Assembly: GCF_003014475.1 (NCBI RefSeq)
Contig: NZ_PYGJ01000017.1
Span: forward strand, 1-64,000
Length of the DNA stretch: 64,000 nt
Direction of reading: 5' to 3'
DNA from: Shimia abyssi
GTDB lineage: Bacteria > Pseudomonadota > Alphaproteobacteria > Rhodobacterales > Rhodobacteraceae
Positions 13,113 to 59,088 of this stretch are shown here, piece by piece. Made by a program: the position numbers and the translations under genes. The stretch's first letter is position 1; every line of letters begins with the position of its first letter. Under the pieces are notes generated by a model that saw only the letters and a program-made list of their open reading frames with translations, was not told the origin of the DNA and did no database searches.

Positions 13113-14684
13113 TCAAGCACGGTATGCGGGGAGTGGTGCCCGGTCTTGCAGATCAATCAATCTGCGCAACATTGTCTCCGACATGGTGGCCGAGAGATCT
13201 GCGAATTTTGTGTTGCCGTATAGGTTAACGGTCTCTTCTGGATCGCTTTCCAAATCATAGAGCTCGTGCCAATCCTCGCCCTGACGCAACGACATCCGAT
13301 ACCTGTCTGTCACGACCGTACGTACCCTTTGCGGGCGATCAAAGCCGGTCATGGTGCGCTGGCTGTCTTCCTCCACGATAATGGCTTCCGGCGGCTCCGT
13401 GGAAAACAGATCGCGGCCCTGGATACCGTTAAAGGGCTGTATTCCAGCCCGAGCGAGTATAGTTGCAGCAATGTCGATGGACGAGCCCAAACCATGATCG
13501 AGCGCTCGATCTTCCGGAGCTATTGGGTCATTCCAGATAAACGGCACGCGGATGATCCCCTGATAGTGCAACAACAGCTTCAGCATAAGGCCGTGATCCC
13601 CCATGTAGTCTCCGTGATCTGAGGTGAAGATAACCACTGTGTTGTCCGTGAGTCCCAAGCTTTCCAACCGCTTCAGAACCCGCCCGATGGCGTCGTCGAT
13701 CATTGTGATCATGCCATAGGTAAGTGCGATGATAGCGCGAGCTTCGTCCTGGGTCACGGCAAAGGGGTTCTGATTGTCGCGTGGATCGGTGCCTTTCTCC
13801 ATGGCCTCCTTCATGGCCTTGATCGGCGGCAAGTCACCTTGGCTGAAGGATGCAGGCAGCGTCATGTCGGCGGGATCATACATATCCCAATAGCGGCCCG
13901 GCGGTGTGAACGGGTGGTGCGGATCCGGGAACGACATTTGCAGGAAGAATGGTTCGTCCTGGTCTGCCTGTTCAGCAAGCCACGCCTCTGACCGATCAGC
14001 TATCCAGGAGGTGGAATAAAGCTCTTCCGGAACAGCGGTCTTCCATGCCTGCGGTGCGTTAATATTGCCGTCCGGTAGCGCATTTTCAGGCCCGACCAAG
14101 GTGTTGAAATCAGGATGCTGGTAACGGGCCCACAAAAGATAGTCACCCGATGCCTGATCACCGTGGTCCGCACAGACCTCGACATGGTTGAAACCATAGA
14201 ACTCACCGTATGTCCGTTCGGCCAGAGGCGTGTCCCAATTTGGGGCAACCTCCAGATCATAATCCGATGAATGGCGGTTGTTTTTGTAGGCGTCGCGCAG
14301 GTGGGCCGAAGGGGCAGTCAGGCCTTCCTTAGCCTCGAACTGGTTTGTTGCAGGCAGGCCGGTAAAGCTCTGGAGGTGCGATTTTCCGACTAGTCCGGTG
14401 TTGTAACCGGCGTCGCGCAACAATTCGACAAAGGTGGTGTGATCCTTCGACAACGGGATGCCGTTGTGTCGCGCACCGTGCGCCGAACTCATTCGTCCGG
14501 TCATGATCGACGCCCGGTTGGGCATACAAATCGGGTTGGCTACATAGAACTTGTCCCACCGGGTGCCGCCTGCTGCGATCCCGTCAATGTTGGGTGTCTG
14601 TACAACCCTGTTGCCGTAACAGCCAAGGTGATCTGCCCGGTGTTGATCGGTGATGATAAACAGGAAGTTTGGTCTTTTGGTCAT
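13113..14684 (-). CDS. Cytosolic sulfatase (formylglycine type)
   Basis: A 523-residue protein of the alkaline phosphatase/sulfatase superfamily. The formylglycine motif is C-M-P-N-R with Cys53, in NPICMPNRASIMTGR. Metal-binding residues include Asp13 and Gln14 (FIITDQHRAD), and FTSDHGDYMGDHG carries the later Asp-His pair. No signal peptide is present, so the enzyme should act in the cytosol on an imported sulfate (or phosphate) ester. Its ATG overlaps the stop of the TRAP permease gene by four bases (ATGA), so uptake and hydrolysis are translationally coupled. An in-frame start at 14915 would add 77 unrelated residues overlapping the permease. The C-terminal half has normal sulfatase length. 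The substrate is unknown; iduronate-, choline- or aryl-type esters cannot be told apart by eye. Confidence 0.9.
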   Translation of the reverse strand: MTKRPNFLFIITDQHRADHLGCYGNRVVQTPNIDGIAAGGTRWDKFYVANPICMPNRASIMTGRMSSAHGARHNGIPLSKDHTTFVELLRDAGYNTGLVGKSHLQSFTGLPATNQFEAKEGLTAPSAHLRDAYKNNRHSSDYDLEVAPNWDTPLAERTYGEFYGFNHVEVCADHGDQASGDYLLWARYQHPDFNTLVGPENALPDGNINAPQAWKTAVPEELYSTSWIADRSEAWLAEQADQDEPFFLQMSFPDPHHPFTPPGRYWDMYDPADMTLPASFSQGDLPPIKAMKEAMEKGTDPRDNQNPFAVTQDEARAIIALTYGMITMIDDAIGRVLKRLESLGLTDNTVVIFTSDHGDYMGDHGLMLKLLLHYQGIIRVPFIWNDPIAPEDRALDHGLGSSIDIAATILARAGIQPFNGIQGRDLFSTEPPEAIIVEEDSQRTMTGFDRPQRVRTVVTDRYRMSLRQGEDWHELYDLESDPEETVNLYGNTKFADLSATMSETMLRRLIDLQDRAPLPAYRA

Positions 14685-16597
14685 TGTGTCGCCTTGGAAG
14701 TTGGCGCCAAAGCTCGGCCTGCGCGGACATCGTATGCGATGAGCGCAAGGCCAAGCCCTACGGCAGGCAGGTGAAACATAGGATCGGTGGCCAGACAGGT
14801 GAACGCGGTCACAAAGCGGATCACGATCTCGGGCACAGTCAGCTTGCGCCGATCGAACCCTGACAAGGCCGATGAGAACAACCAGATACAGAAACAGGTT
14901 CTGGCCACGATCCAAAGGAAGGGTATCAAGCTGAACTCTTCCACAATCAGGATCGTCGGATAGAAGGCAAAGACAAACGGGATGATGAATTTTGCCATGC
15001 CCAGCCGGAATGACATGAAGGCCGTCATCAAAGGGTTCGCTCGGGCGATGGGTGCGGCCGCGTAAGCCGCGATAGCCACCGGTGGGGTCAGCGACGAGGC
15101 AACGCCGTAGTAGAACACAAACATATGTGCGGTCAGCATCGAGACACCCAAGGCTTGGATCGCTGGTCCCATCACGAGGATGATGATGAGGTAGGCTGGC
15201 AAGGTTGGCATACCCATGCCGAGTATCAGAGCGCCAGCCATGGCAACTGCCAGTGCCGAGAACAGGCTCTCACCTCGGATCGACGCAATGACATTGGCCA
15301 GTTTCAGACCCAATCCGGTTGAGTCCAGAGATCCGACGAGGATGCCGATGGCAGCAATGGCGATCAGCAGGGTCGCACCGGATTCCGCGCCTTTTAGGAA
15401 AGACTTCCACACGCGGCCCGGATCGTTGCGCACCTCGGGGTTGATCACGGAAAGCGCCACAAGAACGACAACTGCATAGAACCCGGCAGCAGAAGTGGAT
15501 AGGCCGAGGAGCAAGGAGCCGATCACCACAATGATGGGCCCGGCAAACAGTACCGAATTGATTAGGTCTGTCCGGGCGATTTGGTCATCAACCGTCATTT
15601 CCTGAACTTCGATACCCTGACGGCGGGCCTCAACCGTTACAGCCGAGAACAGGCTGAAATAGTAGAAAAGCGCAGGGAACAAAGCCGCAATGATAATGTT
15701 GAGATAACCGACACCGGTTAAATCGGCCATCACCAGCGCTGCTGCGCCCATGATGGGAGGCATGATCTGACCACCGGATGAAGCTGTCGCCTCGATCCCA
15801 GCGGCGAATGTCGGAGAGAAGCCGCGCTTCTTGATCATCGGGATGGTAAATGTGCCGGTACCAACGATATTGGCCACGGTCGAGCCCGACATGGTTCCGA
15901 ACATCGAGGATGCCAGAATGGCGGCATGGGCCGGTCCGCCCCGGGTACGGCGTGTCGCGAGGAAGGCAAATTTCAACAGAGTGTCGCCTGCTCCGGTGCC
16001 TTCCAGCAGGACGCCGAAAATGATGAAGATGAACACGGTACTCAGCACGATATTGGTAATCGAGCCGAACACGCCCTTGTTTGTGTTGTACCAAAGTGCT
16101 TCGGCAACTTCCTTCAGTGAGAACCCAGAGTGAGCCAGAATGCCCGGCAGGTCTTGTCCGAAAAGCAGGTAGACAACACCAAATGTCCCGACCAAAAACA
16201 AGCCCCACCCCCACAAACGGCGGCACAGTTCGAGAAAGACCACCAGACCAGCCAGCGCGGGCCATGCATCTTTGGTGGCAACATCATAAAGCGCTGTTTC
16301 CATTTCGGTCTGAACAAAGTGAAAAGACCAGATCGACCATAAGCCGACCAAAATCAGCGCGAAATCAACAGCGAGCGTCAAAGGCCTCGCACTGCCATGA
16401 TCACTCCGCCGTCGCTGCGAGGCCGACACGGCGACAATCAAAGCCAATGCAAATCCAGCTGCCCGATGCAATTTAGGGTCGATAAGGCCGACGCCTGAAC
16501 TGTAGAGCGTAATCAGACCCAGTGCGAGGCAGGCAACAGCGGCGGCCATTGCAAACAGGCGGGTCGTGACGTTGGCTGTAGGGGCCGCGTCCGTCAT
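14681..16597 (-). CDS. TRAP transporter permease, fused 4TM/12TM type
   Basis: A 638-residue inner-membrane protein. The N-terminal third contains four to five hydrophobic segments equivalent to the small DctQ subunit. The rest matches the large DctM subunit, with ASSMFGTMSGSTVANIVGTG and ATASSGGQIMPPIMGAAALV as family signatures. Fused permeases of this kind work with TAXI-type binding proteins and drive uptake of organic acids with sodium. It is followed by the sulfatase with an ATGA overlap and preceded by the TAXI gene 69 bases upstream, all one operon. Confidence 0.92.
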   Translation of the reverse strand: MTDAAPTANVTTRLFAMAAAVACLALGLITLYSSGVGLIDPKLHRAAGFALALIVAVSASQRRRSDHGSARPLTLAVDFALILVGLWSIWSFHFVQTEMETALYDVATKDAWPALAGLVVFLELCRRLWGWGLFLVGTFGVVYLLFGQDLPGILAHSGFSLKEVAEALWYNTNKGVFGSITNIVLSTVFIFIIFGVLLEGTGAGDTLLKFAFLATRRTRGGPAHAAILASSMFGTMSGSTVANIVGTGTFTIPMIKKRGFSPTFAAGIEATASSGGQIMPPIMGAAALVMADLTGVGYLNIIIAALFPALFYYFSLFSAVTVEARRQGIEVQEMTVDDQIARTDLINSVLFAGPIIVVIGSLLLGLSTSAAGFYAVVVLVALSVINPEVRNDPGRVWKSFLKGAESGATLLIAIAAIGILVGSLDSTGLGLKLANVIASIRGESLFSALAVAMAGALILGMGMPTLPAYLIIILVMGPAIQALGVSMLTAHMFVFYYGVASSLTPPVAIAAYAAAPIARANPLMTAFMSFRLGMAKFIIPFVFAFYPTILIVEEFSLIPFLWIVARTCFCIWLFSSALSGFDRRKLTVPEIVIRFVTAFTCLATDPMFHLPAVGLGLALIAYDVRAGRALAPTSKATQ

Positions 16598-36293: not shown

Positions 36294-39086
36294 TCAGAAA
36301 TGTACGGAACGCGCACCCAGCGGAGTTTGCTTCGGCGGCGCAAACTTGGTCAGATCAATGCCCTTGACGGCGGTTTTGTACTCTTCAATCGTCGGAGTAC
36401 GACCAAGGATGGCAGAGAGTACCACAACCGGGGTTGAACCAAGCAGCGATTCACCTTTCTTGGTCGCGCTGTCTGCAACCACACGGCCTTGGAACAGACG
36501 TGTGGACGTAGCCAGAACGGTGTCGCCCTTGGCGGCTTTTTCCTGGTTACCCATGCAAAGGTTACAGCCGGGGCGTTCGAGGTAGAGAATATTCTCATAC
36601 TCGGTCCGGGCCGTTGTCTTGGGGGCGTTGTCATCGAATTCAAAGCCGGAGTACTTTTGCAGCACTTCCCAGTCACCTTCTGCCTTCAACTCGTCGATAA
36701 TGTTGTAGGTTGGTGCGGTGACCACGAGCGGCGCGTTGAATTCGACCGAACCTTGCGACTCTTCAAGATTGCGAAGCATCTGGGCGACGATCTTGATGTC
36801 ACCTTTGTGAACCATGCAGGAGCCGACAAAGCCCAGATCCACCTTCTTTTCCGCTTTGTAGAAAGAAATTGGGCGGATCGTGTCGTGAGTGTAGCGCTTG
36901 GACACATCCACGTTATTGACATCGGGGTCCGCGATCATTGGTTCGTTGATCTGATCTAGGTCGACGACCACTTCGGCGGAATACTTGGCATTGGCATCCG
37001 GGGTCAGGGCAGGCTTTGCGCCCGATTTGATTTCGGCAATGCGGGCGTCAGCCTTGGCGATCAAGCTGGCGAGCATTCCGTTATCATGCTCCATGCCTTT
37101 GTCCATCATGATCTGAATACGCGACTTGGCGAGTTCCAGCGACCCGATCAGTGTTTCGTCATTCGAGATACAAACCGATGCTTTGGCCTTCATTTCGGCT
37201 GTCCAGTCGGTGAAGGTAAAGGCCTGATCCGCAAGCAGCGTTCCGATATGCACCTCGATCACACGGCCCTGGAAGACGTTGTCGCCATGCTGCGCGAGCA
37301 TTTGCGCCTGAGTGGCGTGCACAACATCGCGGAAATCCATGTGGTCGGCCATTTGTCCTGTGAAGGTCACCTTAACCGATTCCGGAACAGGCATCGACGC
37401 CTCACCAGTAGCCAGCGCAAGCGCGACGGTACCGGAGTCCGCGCCAAAGGCCACGCCTTTTGACATGCGCGTGTGGCTGTCTCCGCCAATGGTAACGTCC
37501 CAGTCGCTTACAGTGATGTCGTTCAGCACCTTGTGGATAACATCGGTCATCGCATGATATTCGCCCTTGGGGTCACGCCCGGTGACGAGGCCGAAATCGT
37601 TCATGAACTTCATCAGACGCGGTGTGTTGGCCTGAGCCTTGAGGTCCCAAACGGACGCCGTGTGACAACCGGACTGGTACGCGCCATCAACAGTGGGCGA
37701 TACGACGGTAGCCGCCATCGCCTCTAGTTCCTGCATGGTCATCAGACCCGTGGTGTCCTGACTGCCCACGATGTTCACGGCGACGCGGACGTCGGAACCG
37801 GCGTGCAATACCTTGCCCGGAGTGTTGCCACGTGCATTGGCGTTGAAGATTTTCTCAACGGCGGTCATGCCCTGACCTTCATGGCTGATTTCCTTGGATG
37901 GGGCAAAGACCGACTTGAGCTCGACGCCCAAAGTCTCGCAGGCAAGCGTCTGCAGCTTCTTGCCAAAGACAATGGCGTAAGAACCGCCCGCCTTCATGAA
38001 TTCCATCTTTTGTGGCGTGAAGGAAGAGGACATGTCCACCAGCTCTTCACCGCCTTCGGCGCTATAGAGTTTCTTATCTTTAGTGTTGATTTTGAGAACC
38101 GTGCCGGTCTCGACAGAGTACTTCTGCTCAAGGATTGGGTTGCCATCGTTGTTTAGGATCGCCTTGCCGTCAGCATCCACCTTCTTGACCCAATTCTTCA
38201 AGTCGACACCTATGCCGCCGGTCACGCCAACAGTGGTCAGGAAAATCGGCGAGATGCCGTTGGTGCCAGCAACGATTGGCGCAAAATTAACAAAAGGCAC
38301 ATAGGGGCTGGCTTGTTTGCCTGTCCAAAGGGCCACGTTGTTGACGCCCGACATCCGTGATGATCCGACACCCATCGTACCTTTTTCGGCGATAAGCATA
38401 ACTCGCTTGCCGGGGTGTTGCAGTTTGAGGGCTTGGATCTCTTCTTGCGCCGTCTCGGAAATAAAGCACTTACCATGCAGTTCCCGGTCAGAGCGGGAGT
38501 GAGCCTGATTGCCGGGGGACAAAAGGTCGGTCGAGATGTCACCTTCGGCTGCAATGTATGTGACAACTTCGATTTCTTCGTCGATGTCAGGAAGAGTGGT
38601 GAAGAATTCCCCAGCTGCGTAGCTCTCCAGGAGCGATTTTGCGATGGCGTTGCCCGCTTTATAGGCGGCCTCGATGCGGTCCGTGTCGGCCTCATAGAGG
38701 AAGACTTGCGTTTTAAGCACGTCAGCGGCCTTGGTGGCCAATTCGGCTTTTTCGCTCAAAGCAACATCCAGAAGAACGTCAATGGATGGGCCACCTTTCA
38801 TATGCGACAAAAGCTCAAAGGCGTAGTCAACTGAGATTTCTTCAACGACGGTTTCACCCAATACGATTTCTTTGAGAAATCTTGCCTTCGCGCCTGCCGC
38901 GCTCGTTGTTCCGGGCAATGTATTGTAGATCAAGAAATTCAGGGATTGTGCGCGATGCTTGTTTTCGGTTTCCTTGATTTGAGCAATAATTTCTTCAGTC
39001 AGTGCCGCGTCGTCAATCGGCTTAGGGCTCAACCCTTGATCTTTGCGGGTTTCGATCTCTTCGAGGTATGTGATGTACAAGCTCAT
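36294..39086 (-). CDS. acnB: Aconitate hydratase B
   Basis: A 930-residue cytosolic enzyme of the TCA cycle that isomerises citrate and isocitrate through cis-aconitate. It has the AcnB layout with the HEAT-like domain first, then the swivel domain and the catalytic domains. The 4Fe-4S ligands include the pair in PGCNLCMGNQEKAAKG near the C-terminus. Size is slightly above the E. coli enzyme. The ribosome binding site is weak (GGGA). It is convergent with the sugar operon and alone on its transcript. Confidence 0.96.
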   Translation of the reverse strand: MSLYITYLEEIETRKDQGLSPKPIDDAALTEEIIAQIKETENKHRAQSLNFLIYNTLPGTTSAAGAKARFLKEIVLGETVVEEISVDYAFELLSHMKGGPSIDVLLDVALSEKAELATKAADVLKTQVFLYEADTDRIEAAYKAGNAIAKSLLESYAAGEFFTTLPDIDEEIEVVTYIAAEGDISTDLLSPGNQAHSRSDRELHGKCFISETAQEEIQALKLQHPGKRVMLIAEKGTMGVGSSRMSGVNNVALWTGKQASPYVPFVNFAPIVAGTNGISPIFLTTVGVTGGIGVDLKNWVKKVDADGKAILNNDGNPILEQKYSVETGTVLKINTKDKKLYSAEGGEELVDMSSSFTPQKMEFMKAGGSYAIVFGKKLQTLACETLGVELKSVFAPSKEISHEGQGMTAVEKIFNANARGNTPGKVLHAGSDVRVAVNIVGSQDTTGLMTMQELEAMAATVVSPTVDGAYQSGCHTASVWDLKAQANTPRLMKFMNDFGLVTGRDPKGEYHAMTDVIHKVLNDITVSDWDVTIGGDSHTRMSKGVAFGADSGTVALALATGEASMPVPESVKVTFTGQMADHMDFRDVVHATQAQMLAQHGDNVFQGRVIEVHIGTLLADQAFTFTDWTAEMKAKASVCISNDETLIGSLELAKSRIQIMMDKGMEHDNGMLASLIAKADARIAEIKSGAKPALTPDANAKYSAEVVVDLDQINEPMIADPDVNNVDVSKRYTHDTIRPISFYKAEKKVDLGFVGSCMVHKGDIKIVAQMLRNLEESQGSVEFNAPLVVTAPTYNIIDELKAEGDWEVLQKYSGFEFDDNAPKTTARTEYENILYLERPGCNLCMGNQEKAAKGDTVLATSTRLFQGRVVADSATKKGESLLGSTPVVVLSAILGRTPTIEEYKTAVKGIDLTKFAPPKQTPLGARSVHF

Positions 39087-39433
39087 GGCGGTCCCAGCTA
39101 CTAAGTGTCAAATTGCGTTCACACATCGGAAACGAGTGTCATTGTCTGCCGAGCGTGCTTTGTATGCGGCGGTATACCAAAATTGCCGGAAGCGCAAGTG
39201 TCCGCTCTGTAGCAAAGTGTCTCAGTGTCGGGATGGTGAGTGGATGCTCTGTTTAAGGGGATTGAAGCTCAATACATTTATTTCTTGCGAATGCAATGAA
39301 TATGGTAACAAAATGAAGGTGTTGTTCCGTATGCCGTTAAGTTCGCCTTTTAGCGTGAAGGTATAGCGGCCGGGGGACGGAAATTTCTATGCAGTGACCG
39401 ATCTGAATTGAAGGTCTAAGGCAGGTGATCGAA
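39087..39433. other. Intergenic region upstream of acnB and the DUF3179 gene
   Basis: About 350 bases between two divergent genes, so it must hold both promoters. No palindrome or RNA gene stood out. A plus-strand frame 39043-39366 overlaps the acnB start and has no family resemblance. Confidence 0.4.
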
Positions 39434-40684
39434 ATGATTGTGACATTGGTTTACTGGTTGAGCTTGATCGTGACATTGGCAATTGGTTTTGTCTACTTTC
39501 GCGATCTCGGCGACGTGTCACAAATGGTTTTGAAGGTTAAGCGGAGCAACATGCTTCGCTTCATTCGTCATGAGTACACATTCCTGATAATCGGCGGCGT
39601 GGCGTTTGCTGTATTTACGGTTGTGCAGTTTCTTTTTAGTGTGGGGCCACTTTGGATTTGGCTATTTGCCACGGCTCTTGTCGTTCTATTATATGGGTTT
39701 CCGTATATCTGGGTGCATGTGGGATTGCGCAATCAGTCCAAGGTAGCAGAGTTCGTATCGATTGCCGAAGCGCGGGCCTATGTTGCTCCGTCTAACCAAG
39801 TTCTCGTGATGGAGAACAATGGCGTGGCGAGAGCTCACCCTCAAGCGCAGCTGCTGAGACCTCATTTGGCTGGAAATGATGAAGGCTTGAACGGCGAGAA
39901 CGTCATCATGACGTACTGTGCCATGGCGAATTTGGGTATCGGCTATACTCCCGAAATTGAAGGGGAGACGGTGGATCTGGATGTGCTTGCTCAACATGGC
40001 AATAACCTAGTTTTGCGCGACAACAAGACCGGAGAGCCGGTGCAACAGATCTATGGGTTTCGCGAACGTGACATAGCATCTGATCAGTCCGGGCCTGTTT
40101 GCCCGATGCGTCCCACGTTAGCGATGCGCCCGTGGCCCACATTTCGCATGACATTCCGTGCGTTTGAAAAGGCGTATCCTGACGGCACTGTTTTTATTAA
40201 CAAGCCTTCGTCAAACCCGATCCTGTTTTTGTTCGATATGGCCTTAGAAATGCTCTTTGCCGCGTCCATCGAACGACAACACCGGGAAGCCAAGCCGGTT
40301 ATGGACAATATGACTCACTATGACGAACGACTACCCAATAAGACGTATGTTTGGGGTATCGACATCGACGGAGATGCAGTTTGTTGGACTGACGACTTTG
40401 TAATTGATCAGGGCGGCCTCGTGAATGCCACTGTTGGGGGGCGGCCGGTGGTTGCCGCCTGGGATCCCAGGTTTGAGAGCCTTGGCGTTTGGTACAATGA
40501 CACCGGTGAATCGGTTCAGGAAATCGACTTTTTCGGCGATTCACCAGCTGGCCGTTTGGAGCGGGTTGAAGGACTGAGACCGGGGCTTTTCTGGCATGTT
40601 TGGGTTGAATTCTTTCCGCACACGGATCTGAACAGATTGGACGATGCTGAGGCCGATACTGCTGCCAGTTCTAGGCAGGCATAA
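39434..40684 (+). CDS. DUF3179-domain membrane protein
   Basis: A 416-residue protein. Three hydrophobic segments fill the first 100 residues (IVTLVYWLSLIVTLAIGFVY and two around residues 50-95). The rest matches the DUF3179 domain, with VLVMENNGVARAHPQAQLLR, NVIMTYCAMANLGIGYTPEI and DPRFESLGVWYNDTG. The function of the family is not known. ATG 39434 has GGCAGG eight bases upstream; a GTG at 39425 is also in frame. It is followed after 47 bases by a sulfatase, with which it probably forms an operon. Confidence 0.8.
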   Translation: MIVTLVYWLSLIVTLAIGFVYFRDLGDVSQMVLKVKRSNMLRFIRHEYTFLIIGGVAFAVFTVVQFLFSVGPLWIWLFATALVVLLYGFPYIWVHVGLRNQSKVAEFVSIAEARAYVAPSNQVLVMENNGVARAHPQAQLLRPHLAGNDEGLNGENVIMTYCAMANLGIGYTPEIEGETVDLDVLAQHGNNLVLRDNKTGEPVQQIYGFRERDIASDQSGPVCPMRPTLAMRPWPTFRMTFRAFEKAYPDGTVFINKPSSNPILFLFDMALEMLFAASIERQHREAKPVMDNMTHYDERLPNKTYVWGIDIDGDAVCWTDDFVIDQGGLVNATVGGRPVVAAWDPRFESLGVWYNDTGESVQEIDFFGDSPAGRLERVEGLRPGLFWHVWVEFFPHTDLNRLDDAEADTAASSRQA

Positions 40685-40731
40685 TTTGACCCCTTGGCGA
40701 TGGCGGAACTGAAAATTCTAGGGAGCAAGAG

Positions 40732-42396
40732 ATGAAGGCGACACTAAAAGGCACTGTTTTGAGTATAGCGGTCTTGCCGTGCTTTGCTCAAGCTGACGCG
40801 ATCAAGCATGATGCGGAGTATTATATTCTTCTTGATCAGCACGCCGAGGCGTGGGCCGAAGATGATGCCGCCGTAGACGCGGAATTGGCGGGTTTTCGCG
40901 AGCGAAACGGCGGCACCGCACCCAATATCATCAGCATTCTCATCGATGATCTTGGTTTTGGAGATATGGGTATCCCCGAGCTGAACGCGGTGCGCGGCTA
41001 TGAGACGCCGAATGTTAACGACTTTTCAGACGAAGCTTTGCGAATGGTGCGTATGTACACGGAACCGTCCTGCACCCCGACGCGCGTGGCCCAAATGACC
41101 GGTCGATTGCCTGTGCGCACAAGCATGGGAAATACGCAGGTGGATATCGTTGGCGAGGGTTTGCCGGGCGACGAAGTCTTGCTGCCGGAGCTTCTCAAAG
41201 AAGTTGGCTATGCGACGTCTCATGTCGGCAAGTGGCACATGGGGGACATCGCGGAAAGCTGGGCGATGAACCAAGGATTTGACTATGCACAGATGGCGGT
41301 GCACCAGCAGGGTCAGCTAACGATCTACCATGACGATGCAATCCGAGAGCAGGTGTCGGTCGGGATTTTCGACTATGAAGACACCTACACGGTGGATGAT
41401 TTCTTCCGACCGGATGCGTCGGCCATGATGACTGTGATCGAAGGCGAAGCAGGAGGCAGCGTGCGCGAAATTCGCATGGAAAATGGCGAACGTTGGAACA
41501 CGGCCAAATATGACGAGATGAATCAGGCGTTTCAGGACAAAACTCTATCTGAACTGGAGCGTTTGGCTGGGGGCGAGGAGCCATTCTTTTTGCAATACTG
41601 GCCGATGATCCCACTGCACAATACTCGCACAGGACGGGATGGTCCGGAGAGCCCGAATGCAGGTCTTTATGTTGACAAAATGCAGCAACTGGACAGTTGG
41701 TTGGGTGATATCTTTGAGCGGATGGAAGAGTTGGGCGTCGCGGACAACACGATTGTTGTCCTGATGGGGGACAACGGGCATTTCACCAAATACTCGCCGC
41801 AGTCCGGGTTTACCCCGATGATTTATCGTGGCGGCAAGGCCGATACGACCGAGGGCGGTATTCGTGTGGATGCGTTTATTCGCTGGCCCGGCATGATTGA
41901 GGCCGACGGTCTGCTGAACAGCATTATCCACGTTTCTGATCTGTACACTACACTTGCCCGTTTTGCCGGCGCGGATCAGCATATTCCACGTGACCGTTTG
42001 GTGGATGGTGTCGATCAGTCCGCTGCGTTGCTGTTTTCGGATGAAACAAAGGCGCGGCGCGACCATGTGATAGTATATTCTGTGCATACGCCTGCTGCGA
42101 TTATCAAGGACCAGTTGAAGATGAACATGCCCAAAGCCGGCGAAAATCCGATTGGTGCCAAGTTCTTTGACCTGTTCCGTGATACGCGTGAAGAATACCC
42201 TGTTTCGACGGAAGTCGGCGCGTGGGGCGGACAAGAGTTTGTGCGCATTTTTGGTCGTCACAAAGCCCGTAAGGAGCTGTACCCGGACGGCCCAGCCGCC
42301 AAGGGTGTGCCATATGAGGGGATCGATAATATTCGTCCCGAAACCGCCGAAGCGGTTCGGCAGTTTCAGGTGAAACGCGCTGCGGTGCAACAGTGA
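40732..42396 (+). CDS. Periplasmic arylsulfatase-type enzyme
   Basis: A 554-residue protein with a signal peptide (MKATLKGTVLSIAVLPCFAQ). The formylglycine motif is C-T-P-T-R (Cys114), and the first metal pair is Asp72-Asp73 in SILIDDLGFGDMGIPE. GKWHMGDI and VVLMGDNGHFTKYS carry the later Lys, His, Asp and Asn positions. It needs activation by a formylglycine-generating system, not present in the window. The start follows AGGGAGC. It sits between the DUF3179 gene and an outer-membrane barrel gene 14 bases downstream, so the three likely work together at the cell envelope. Confidence 0.9.
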   Translation: MKATLKGTVLSIAVLPCFAQADAIKHDAEYYILLDQHAEAWAEDDAAVDAELAGFRERNGGTAPNIISILIDDLGFGDMGIPELNAVRGYETPNVNDFSDEALRMVRMYTEPSCTPTRVAQMTGRLPVRTSMGNTQVDIVGEGLPGDEVLLPELLKEVGYATSHVGKWHMGDIAESWAMNQGFDYAQMAVHQQGQLTIYHDDAIREQVSVGIFDYEDTYTVDDFFRPDASAMMTVIEGEAGGSVREIRMENGERWNTAKYDEMNQAFQDKTLSELERLAGGEEPFFLQYWPMIPLHNTRTGRDGPESPNAGLYVDKMQQLDSWLGDIFERMEELGVADNTIVVLMGDNGHFTKYSPQSGFTPMIYRGGKADTTEGGIRVDAFIRWPGMIEADGLLNSIIHVSDLYTTLARFAGADQHIPRDRLVDGVDQSAALLFSDETKARRDHVIVYSVHTPAAIIKDQLKMNMPKAGENPIGAKFFDLFRDTREEYPVSTEVGAWGGQEFVRIFGRHKARKELYPDGPAAKGVPYEGIDNIRPETAEAVRQFQVKRAAVQQ

Positions 42397-42410
42397 GGGG
42401 TGGCTGAGCC

Positions 42411-43226
42411 ATGAGTGAACAAGAAAATAGTACACCTGAGGGAATGCTAAGCAAAATGATGGCTGTCGCGGCTGTTGCGACGGCATTTGTGTCACCTGCG
42501 GCAGCTGACCCGGCTGTGTTGTCCTTTTCGCAAGAATGGAGCACTGACCTGACGGGATATATTTTCCTGCCGGTGTCGACGACGGGCACGTCTACTGTTG
42601 CCGGTTCATCGGGGTCGATTGACCTTAGCCTGCGTGACGCGCTGGAACTGTTGGACTTTGCGGCGTCGATACGATCCGAGAGCTGGAAGGGGGATTTCGG
42701 CCTTATATTTGACGCCAACTACTTGTCTCTTGGGCAAGATTTTGTTGGCGGCGGTGGTGGTAGCGCCCAAGTGGATGTTGAGCAATACTGGCTCGCGTTT
42801 ATGGGCGCTTATCGCGTTGCGGGCTCAAACGGAGCAGGCGATCGGCCTTATTCTTTCGATATCCATGCAGGCGCACGATACAACAGCCTCAAGCAACAGC
42901 TTGATTTGAATGGCCCAGGGCCGGGTATGTCCTTTGGTGGGACTGAAACTTGGTGGGAGCCAGTAATCGGTGCGCGGTATACATGGCAGATCAATGACCG
43001 GTGGACCGGTGCGGTTCTGGCAGATGCCGGCGGCTTTGGCGTTAATGGCAGCGACTTGCAGTTTAGCACGACGCTTGGCTTCGATTATGGTTACGACAAC
43101 GGCGGATCACTGAAGTTGGGCGTGAGGTACTATAGCATCGACTATTCGAACGTACGTTCCGACGGGCTTTTCGCTTATGACGTGGATCAGGTTGGGCCTT
43201 TTGTCGGGTATACGTTCCGCTTTTAA
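42411..43226 (+). CDS. Outer-membrane beta-barrel protein
   Basis: A 271-residue protein. A signal peptide is visible from about residue 12 (MLSKMMAVAAVATAFVSPAA). The mature part has alternating aromatic strands and ends in the barrel signature GPFVGYTFRF with a C-terminal Phe. The first 11 residues (MSEQENSTPEG) are unusual ahead of a signal peptide, so the true start may be the ATG at 42444, although the spacing to a ribosome binding site is better for 42411. It may form a pore or anchor for the sulfatase made upstream. Confidence 0.75.
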   Translation: MSEQENSTPEGMLSKMMAVAAVATAFVSPAAADPAVLSFSQEWSTDLTGYIFLPVSTTGTSTVAGSSGSIDLSLRDALELLDFAASIRSESWKGDFGLIFDANYLSLGQDFVGGGGGSAQVDVEQYWLAFMGAYRVAGSNGAGDRPYSFDIHAGARYNSLKQQLDLNGPGPGMSFGGTETWWEPVIGARYTWQINDRWTGAVLADAGGFGVNGSDLQFSTTLGFDYGYDNGGSLKLGVRYYSIDYSNVRSDGLFAYDVDQVGPFVGYTFRF

Positions 43227-43233
43227 AGTAACA

Positions 43234-43261
43234 ACGCCGGCGAGAAACTTCTCGCCGGCGT
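43234..43261. terminator. Hairpin between the barrel gene and the convergent aldolase-type gene
   Basis: ACGCCGGCGAGA pairs perfectly with TCTCGCCGGCGT around a four-base loop, seven bases after the barrel stop. There is no clear T run on either strand, so it may act as an inefficient terminator or an mRNA-stabilising hairpin for both convergent genes. Confidence 0.6.
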
Positions 43262-57546: not shown

Positions 57547-59088
57547 ATGAACAATCAGAAGAATGTCCTATTCATCACACTGGACCAAATGCGTGCTGAT
57601 TGCCTGAAAGGGGCGCTGGAGGGGCACGTCGACCTGCCCAACATGCGGGCACTAATGCGCGATGCTGTGGCATTCCAAAACCACTACACGGTTACTGCCC
57701 CCTGCGGCCCCGCAAGGACGTCTTTGTTGACCGGGCAGTATTCGATGAACCACCGTTCTGTTCGCAATGGAACGCCTATGCGGCATGATACGCCTAATAT
57801 TGCCACAGAAATGCGTAAGGCCGGCTACCTTCCCATGCTGTTTGGCTACACGGATACATCTGGCGATCCGCGCATTCATCACCCAAAAGACCCGGCGGTT
57901 CAATCCTACGAAATGCCAATGGCTGGCTTCCATGAAATGGTCGAGATGCGCATGGAGATGTCACATCCTTGGCGCGGTCACTTGGTAAGAAAAGGATACC
58001 AGTTCGACGGGTACGAAAGTATTTACAAACCGGTTAGCGAGGATGGCGGTCCCGGAAGGCTGTGCGACCCGGCGTTTTTTCGGGCCGAGGACAGCGATAC
58101 CGCATTCCTGACGGATCGGTTCTTGGAGACGATGCCGGGATATGAGACTGAAAGCTGGTTTGCCCATCTGACATATATCCGACCGCACTGGCCCCCAATC
58201 GCGCCAGAGCCATACAATCGAATGTATGACCCTGACACTCTACCATTGCCAACTCGGGTGGGTTCGGCGGAAGAGGCGGCAGCGCTACATCCATTTATGG
58301 GGCCAGCGCAGAAAAAGGACTTACCCAGCAAGCCCAATCTGGGGTTTCCGGGTTATGAGGTGAACCATAAATCGACCCAAGAGGCACGTGCGGTATATTT
58401 GGGTTTATTGACAGAGGTGGATCATCACATCGGGAGAGTAATCAAATACCTAAAGTCCAGCGGCCAGTATGAGACGACACTGGTGATAGTAACGTCCGAT
58501 CATGGTGAGATGCTGGGTGATCACTTTGCTTGGGGCAAGCAGTCGGTTTTTGACAAGGCGTATCATATTCCTTTAATTGTAAGGGTTCCTGGGTTGGAGC
58601 ATCGCGCAGGGGCGCTTGTTGATGCTCCAACCGAGTCGATTGATTTGGTTCCAACGGTACTGGAGTGGGTCGGTCAAGAGGTGCCCAATTCAGTTGATGG
58701 CAGTTCATTGTCGCCTTTACTGGAGGGGGAAACCCCCGAAATCTGGAGAAAGTATACGTTTTCTGAGTATGATTTTTATGACGTTGAAACACCTTCGCCG
58801 TGGCACAACGCTTTGGGTTTTGGGGCAACGGAATCCTGCCTGAGCATACTTCGTGATGGGCGTTATTCATTGGTGGAATTTGGTTGCGATCTTCCGACGA
58901 TCTTATTTGACCATGAGTCACGAGGTGAGTTCGAGAACGTTGCGGAAGACGCTGATTACGCCGGGGAAGTCCTGCGCTTGACACGTGCAATGTTGCGCCA
59001 TCGTATGGCACACATGGACCAAACTCTGGCAATGGATCAGATTACAAATAAAGGCCCCATTCGCGAGCTGCGGCATAAGCCAGATTAG
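57547..59088 (+). CDS. Phosphonate monoester hydrolase/phosphodiesterase-type enzyme
   Basis: A 513-residue cytosolic enzyme of the sulfatase superfamily, without a signal peptide. The formylglycine motif is C-G-P-A-R (Cys53) in TAPCGPARTSLLTGQYSMNH; Asp13 and Gln14 (FITLDQMRAD) and VTSDHGEMLGDH are metal ligands. The sequence resembles the rhizobial phosphonate monoester hydrolase along its length (FGYTDTSGDPR, ESIDLVPTVLEW, LRHRMAHMDQTL at the end). Those enzymes cleave phosphonate monoesters and phosphodiesters and, more weakly, sulfate esters. It converges with a DeoR gene six bases away. Confidence 0.88.
   Translation: MNNQKNVLFITLDQMRADCLKGALEGHVDLPNMRALMRDAVAFQNHYTVTAPCGPARTSLLTGQYSMNHRSVRNGTPMRHDTPNIATEMRKAGYLPMLFGYTDTSGDPRIHHPKDPAVQSYEMPMAGFHEMVEMRMEMSHPWRGHLVRKGYQFDGYESIYKPVSEDGGPGRLCDPAFFRAEDSDTAFLTDRFLETMPGYETESWFAHLTYIRPHWPPIAPEPYNRMYDPDTLPLPTRVGSAEEAAALHPFMGPAQKKDLPSKPNLGFPGYEVNHKSTQEARAVYLGLLTEVDHHIGRVIKYLKSSGQYETTLVIVTSDHGEMLGDHFAWGKQSVFDKAYHIPLIVRVPGLEHRAGALVDAPTESIDLVPTVLEWVGQEVPNSVDGSSLSPLLEGETPEIWRKYTFSEYDFYDVETPSPWHNALGFGATESCLSILRDGRYSLVEFGCDLPTILFDHESRGEFENVAEDADYAGEVLRLTRAMLRHRMAHMDQTLAMDQITNKGPIRELRHKPD

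Follow-up and report, generated by a model that had tools for sequence, protein, structure and literature searches.

We analyzed a 64,000-nucleotide stretch of Shimia abyssi DNA (contig NZ_PYGJ01000017.1, positions 1 to 64,000; hereafter the window) that carries, in a row, genes for a DUF3179 membrane protein, a type I sulfatase, and a predicted outer-membrane β-barrel. Genes of these three kinds are found as neighbors in numerous marine bacteria, and the DUF3179 protein has an invariant cysteine whose place is taken by UGA in two genomes that encode SelB. We tentatively propose that the protein is a cysteine/selenocysteine (Cys/Sec) redox accessory of an organosulfate-utilization module, a reading to which we assign a probability of about 0.45. 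The three genes are the following.

39434-40684, plus strand: DUF3179 membrane protein gene (416 amino acids from the ATG; PF11376)
40732-42396, plus strand: type I sulfatase gene (554 amino acids; PF00884, 2.1e-33)
42411-43226, plus strand: predicted outer-membrane β-barrel gene (271 amino acids; 42444 is a possible internal start)

Of 198 genomes searched in the family Rhodobacteraceae, eight gave a DUF3179 match at E ≤ 1e-5. Five of the matches, the window's own included, are strong, and a sulfatase gene lies near three of the four others, L015 being the one without. A contig scan yielded 62 loci, or 63 with the window, four duplicates having been left out; as the neighborhood profiles were built from these same loci, the counts describe presence and are no independent test. 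At E ≤ 1e-5, 48 of the 63 loci have a sulfatase, 29 a barrel, and 27 a TPR regulator; the stricter setting of E ≤ 1e-20 within 6 kb leaves 47, 29, and 24, respectively. When the set is restricted to the 44 loci flanked by at least 6 kb on either side, a sulfatase occurs in 37, a barrel in 25, both in 24, and a TPR regulator in 19. Because the 21 module genomes hold 218 PF00884 matches in ≈104 Mb, only ≈0.03 sulfatase genes would be expected per such span, and the association of DUF3179 with the sulfatase in 37 of 44 loci is thus beyond chance. The earlier note had turned to neighborhoods elsewhere for a repeated association of the three families, and it does recur at these frequencies. Given this co-occurrence across loci, the DUF3179 protein very likely acts in a pathway that uses this sulfatase, which partly supports that note's suggestion of a role in sulfatase function; activation, one of the two roles it offered, is not favored, as set out below.

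Block inheritance in related organisms might place these genes together without any functional link, and most of the loci do come from Alphaproteobacteria, with Ruegeria and its close kin over-represented. However, order and orientation vary while the partners persist, in several families and on a plasmid. The closest sulfatase lies 3′ of DUF3179 in 24 of the 37 loci and 5′ in 13, the genes staying together; NCBI annotation of a Ruegeria plasmid has the sulfatase and DUF3179 genes adjacent; and in two independent cases from a class-wide search, G288 and G320, which belong to two other families, the sulfatase directly precedes DUF3179. Outside the Alphaproteobacteria, sulfatase neighbors occur in two metagenome-assembled genomes (MAGs) of Gammaproteobacteria (L023 and L054), and a Desulfobulbaceae MAG outside the 44 loci (L072) has all three genes. 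With so few sulfatase genes expected per locus, inheritance in a block without a functional link is very improbable and is largely refuted.

Other companions of DUF3179 say something about the setting. The TPR regulator is the fourth recurrent gene, and the closest one lies upstream and in the opposite orientation in all 24 loci. Same-strand profile matches also exist, weak in L023 and in L051 and strong but more distant in L065. Genes for an AraC-type regulator, a formate/nitrite transporter, a Cys-rich repeat protein, and a phosphodiesterase each appear in a few loci, and amidase and FAD-binding protein genes accompany some. Molybdenum (Mo)-hydroxylase genes lie near DUF3179 in L015/L081 and L163 and, by shared gene clusters, also in L038, L073, and L074. 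The genes in L073, L074, L081, and L038 are for a three-subunit Mo-hydroxylase, and three of these four loci have no family sulfatase in the stretch examined. In L081, and by shared clusters also in L073 and L074, DUF3179 stands with Mo-hydroxylase and GCV_T genes and without a family sulfatase. The Mo-hydroxylase, amidase, and other companions suit a catabolic setting, and the L081 pattern suits a metabolic step better than a role confined to the sulfatase.

The association was also approached from the sulfatase side, by scoring three sulfatase candidates per genome in 394 genomes of the family with a profile made from the module sulfatases. A sulfatase scoring above 1,100 bits is present in four genomes (G000, G007, G043, and G125), and all four have DUF3179. 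Nine other genomes have only lower-scoring paralogs; G670 was left out of these nine as an apparent duplicate, its contigs agreeing in number, length, and hit places with those of G608, the source of locus L055, where DUF3179 is present. DUF3179 is absent at E ≤ 1e-5 from the paralog-only genomes tested (G038, G078, G100, and G180). Two genomes sampled from the class, G380 and G423, encode a sulfatase relative (657 and 511 bits, respectively) but give no DUF3179 match at E ≤ 1e-20.

The residue that points to redox chemistry is C162, encoded as follows.

39917-39919, plus strand: C162 codon (TGT), the residue being invariant across all 44 aligned homologs

It is the only fully invariant cysteine of the subfamily (C317 is present in 43 of 44), and it aligns with the core cysteine, which follows a tyrosine (Y-C), of five out of five canonical DUF3179 members. 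Histidines are conserved as well: among the 44 homologs, H95 and H144 occur in 44, H135, H283, and H388 in 43, and H188 in 41. Two Desulfobulbaceae genomes, L072 and L078, both outside the 44-row alignment, have TGA at the place of C162. The L072 gene (10004-11203) is open throughout save for this TGA and is preceded, in the same orientation, by a barrel gene and a sulfatase gene; the L078 gene (328-1526) also has a one-base, frame-breaking difference upstream that is perhaps an assembly error. SelB is found in both genomes (363 and 364.5 bits; cut-off 242.25) and is not over the cut-off in either of the two Cys-using genomes tested beside them. A hairpin with a 7-bp stem lies 3′ of the UGA in L072 and L078, its energy no better than that of shuffled sequences (z 0.38 and −0.16). 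NCBI annotation calls some DUF3179 members "(seleno)protein", and two reviews list DUF3179 among selenoprotein families with UxxC/T motifs (PMC9312934, PMC13188914). The corresponding CxxC or CxxT motif, present in five out of five canonical members aligned but no condition of belonging to PF11376, is not found in the window protein, which reads CAMA, and the aligned homologs have neither Cys nor Thr at the partner place, except for a CxxT reading in L075 and L080; judged by the alignment, the usual partner residue of the redox motif is missing in this subfamily. From the invariance of C162 and the UGA in two genomes with SelB, we infer that the protein would be a redox protein using thiol/selenol chemistry at this position.

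The DUF3179 protein matches PF11376 at 121.1 bits (7.8e-35; cut-off 27). This is its only Pfam match; there is none in NCBIfam, and none to formylglycine-generating enzyme (FGE, PF03781) or to the anaerobic sulfatase-maturating enzyme (anSME, TIGR03942). The AlphaFold2 model (mean pLDDT 86.8, pTM 0.82) has a mostly β soluble part behind an N-terminal anchor.

39434-39724, plus strand: three-helix membrane anchor (helices 2-25, 47-68, and 73-97 in the AlphaFold2 model)

Positively charged loops of membrane proteins face the cytoplasm, the positive-inside rule. Across the 44 homologs, the mean number of lysines and arginines is 5.98 between helices 1 and 2 (stretch 22-47; minimum 4), 0.11 between helices 2 and 3, and 2.50 after helix 3. 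By this charge bias, the N terminus is most likely outside and the soluble domain is predicted to be cytoplasmic. The earlier note had seen in the three proteins a complete path across the envelope; with the DUF3179 domain predicted on the cytoplasmic side, such a continuous path is doubtful. Among canonical DUF3179 genes, one on a Thiothrix plasmid (L107 1-2289) adjoins genes for a thioredoxin-domain protein, DUF4395, and a GDCCVxC (seleno)protein, which are thiol-redox neighbors.

The sulfatase matches PF00884 at 116.3 bits (cut-off 25), and its closest solved chain is 7aj0, "Arylsulfatase" (E 2.5e-54); no NCBIfam model exceeds its cut-off. Its N-terminal signal peptide, identified by inspection, indicates that the enzyme is probably exported, and a stretch of ≈40 N-terminal residues before the sulfatase domain is common to five aligned family members. 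The active-site motif is located as follows.

41071-41085, plus strand: CTPTR motif with C114, the predicted formylglycine site, as in Cys-type sulfatases

All 61 family sulfatases of the loci (E ≤ 1e-30) have the active-site Cys, in the forms CTPTR (54), CTPSR (5), and CTAGR (2), and none has Ser. The genome of S. abyssi has two further paralogs on other contigs (L167 and L168), each with a divergent TPR regulator and with no DUF3179 or barrel gene in the stretch read. Within the window, three genes in all encode sulfatase-superfamily proteins with a Cys motif. The two additional PF00884 proteins are encoded at 13113-14915 on the minus strand (CMPNR motif; adjoining a TRAP transporter DctM gene at 14681-16597) and at 57547-59088 on the plus strand (CGPAR motif).

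Bacterial formylglycine formation is generally placed on the cytoplasmic side of the membrane, the side to which the DUF3179 domain is predicted to face. The DUF3179 protein might then mature or activate its partner sulfatase before export, either by converting Cys to formylglycine or by aiding FGE, and so form part of a candidate third maturation system. The exclusively Cys-type partners are in keeping with such a role, as is an invariant Cys/Sec suited to redox chemistry. We searched 51 module genomes for PF03781 and anSME, counting FGE by its two-cysteine motif. A PF03781 match is present in 34 and absent from 17, and only 14 have the motif; the matches in the remaining genomes lack it and were not accepted as FGE. 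anSME is over the cut-off in five genomes, three of them without FGE. A known maker, FGE or anSME, is thus found in 17 of the 51 genomes and in none of the other 34, completeness not being given for genomes reached via named loci; Ruegeria conchae TW15 (L037) is one with neither enzyme. For the 39 genomes with a sulfatase in the locus, the split is 14 with FGE or anSME and 25 with neither; 21 of the 31 such genomes whose title lacks "MAG" have neither enzyme. Taken alone, these numbers resemble the picture of a missing maturase. FGE and DUF3179 share a row of genes in G320, where sulfatase, DUF3179, amidase, and FGE follow one another (L163 7634-13090), separated by 9, 15, and 9 bp when the longest open reading frames (ORFs) are taken. 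Of the eight paralog-only genomes, five (G038, G180, G626, G638, and G665) have the two-cysteine FGE motif; PF03781 finds nothing in G100, its best match in G691 is without the motif, and G078 has a single weak match.

The same survey also holds much that speaks against maturation. A two-cysteine FGE is encoded in the window's own genome and in 14 of the 51 module genomes, in G320 within the same row, so FGE is not replaced there. All five of the FGE-less genomes sampled encode further Cys-type members of the sulfatase family away from the module, in 12 of 20 stretches, and sulfatase paralogs occur without DUF3179. E. coli, whose sulfatase maturation machinery is described as elusive in a passage of PMC6189696 (citing Benjdia 2007), has no PF11376 match, as one of 14 control genomes. 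Passages of the same paper state that unmodified Cys sulfatases may show low activity, for which reason the absence of a known maker is no proof of a replacement. These observations weaken the idea of a simple FGE replacement or missing maturase. Overall, we regard cytoplasmic maturation or activation as doubtful, and a dedicated activating factor that makes, or helps to make, formylglycine where FGE and anSME are missing as rather improbable; the activation suggested in the earlier note is thus possible but not favored, given the FGE of the window's genome, the row shared by FGE and DUF3179, and the paralogs without DUF3179.

Fold comparison raised another alternative, in which DUF3179, having a Rieske-like fold, would be a metal or electron-transfer protein for varying oxidoreductases and the sulfatase a frequent but indirect neighbor. 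In VIA-align comparisons, the full model matches NirD (3c0d; Z 6.6, rmsd 3.7, 96 aligned), the NirD and Rieske oxygenase matches covering residues 128-250 amid unrelated helical matches to the anchor. For the domain modeled alone (pLDDT 77.4), ranks 1-31 are all Rieske-fold chains, headed by 1vm9 (Z 5.9, rmsd 3.3, 89 aligned), whereas the best-ranked unrelated chain reaches Z 3.1. The histidines conserved in 41 to 44 of the 44 homologs and the Mo-hydroxylase genes near some loci are compatible with such a protein. Every Z is below 8, however, and Foldseek returned no match at E ≤ 0.001, which in turn is no demonstration of a new fold. Compared by profile with five Rieske domains from the same genome, the protein gave probabilities of 0.5% and 1.7%; when the 44-row alignment was searched against PDB sequences, no relative was convincing (best E 0.26); and the Rieske ligand pattern CxH...CxxH is not present in DUF3179, which has RPH-x17-CxxA instead. 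We considered H144 and C162 as a remnant of the Rieske ligands; their spacing would suit this, but where the structural alignments end suggests another register, and the profiles are unsupportive. On balance, a Rieske-like metal or electron-transfer protein is unlikely, and the fold resemblance stands as a lead.

We return to the DUF3179 protein as a Cys/Sec redox accessory of an organosulfate-utilization module. In such a module, a sulfated compound would cross the outer membrane by way of the barrel; the exported, predicted formylglycine-type sulfatase would remove sulfate in the periplasm; and the inner-membrane DUF3179 protein, its domain toward the cytoplasm, would contribute a redox step to this pathway by thiol/selenol chemistry at its invariant Cys/Sec. 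As between the sulfatase itself and the desulfated product entering the cell, our guess is that the product is most likely its target, and the "product handling" that the earlier note offered beside activation is accordingly the likelier of the two. Several observations weigh against this proposal. The neighborhood profiles derive from the very loci that were counted. Seven of the 44 well-covered loci lack a family sulfatase (L032, L057, L060, L066, L074, L081, and L082), and 19 lack a barrel. Charge bias is the single line of evidence for a cytoplasmic domain, and canonical DUF3179 relatives, the second DUF3179 protein of the window's genome among them, look exported by inspection.

In the window itself, the ORFs, Pfam matches, and gaps confirm three consecutive plus-strand genes with short spacing (47 and 14 bp), as first described. 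Each start is preceded by a purine-rich stretch, by inspection, and the DUF3179 ORF has an alternative GTG start at 39425 that would give 419 amino acids. The unit is flanked upstream by acnB and downstream by an HMGL-type gene, both on the minus strand; the aconitase gene (36294-39086, minus strand) is of the AcnB type, its product having 930 amino acids versus the 852 positions of model NF006690 (936 bits, cut-off 782). From this arrangement, the DUF3179, sulfatase, and barrel genes would form one operon, which may end at the following feature.

43234-43261, no strand assigned: perfect inverted repeat of 13 bp where two convergent genes meet, likely a shared terminator

The window's barrel protein has no Pfam match itself and ends in an aromatic F; 8 of 19 aligned members of its family match OMP_b-brl (PF13505). 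An odd hydrophilic extension had been noted before its signal peptide, and there are indeed 11 residues before the internal ATG at 42444. An AGGGG ≈10 nucleotides before the first ATG (42411) suits that start; either start is possible, and the extension thus gives no sign of anything unusual.

Our literature search found no known function for DUF3179, no link to sulfatases in the DUF3179 passages retrieved, and no paper combining a sulfatase with PF11376. The acesulfame sulfatase of Shinella also adjoins an amidase gene, in a paper whose main text does not contain the word DUF (PMC11500405). New here are the three-helix anchor with its predicted cytoplasmic domain, C162 and its UGA counterpart, and the lack of FGE and anSME in 25 of the 39 sulfatase-locus genomes. 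The persistent yet rearranging link of a membrane-bound subfamily to one sulfatase subfamily, together with the Cys/Sec position, assigns DUF3179 to a pathway and offers a residue for mutation and named strains as hosts, and the finding sharpens a published puzzle, that of Cys-type sulfatases in bacteria without a known maturation enzyme.

Compared with known systems, the first DUF3179 domain weakly resembles the Rieske/NirD fold but has neither its ligand motif nor profile support. Redox handling of Cys-type sulfatases belongs to FGE (SUMF1) and anSME, to which the DUF3179 protein has no sequence match, although FGE occurs in its gene row in G320. The sulfatase has, like type I (formylglycine) sulfatases, a PF00884 domain over the cut-off and a C/S-x-P-x-R motif, but reaches no NCBIfam cut-off and has the N-terminal stretch common to the aligned members of its family. 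The window's DUF3179 subfamily shares with canonical DUF3179 proteins the Y-C core and, with four of the five canonical members, an upstream His. Where canonical members have CxxC or CxxT, it has CxxA in most homologs (UGMA in the Sec forms), and it adds a three-helix anchor, a domain predicted to be cytoplasmic rather than exported, and the link to a sulfatase.

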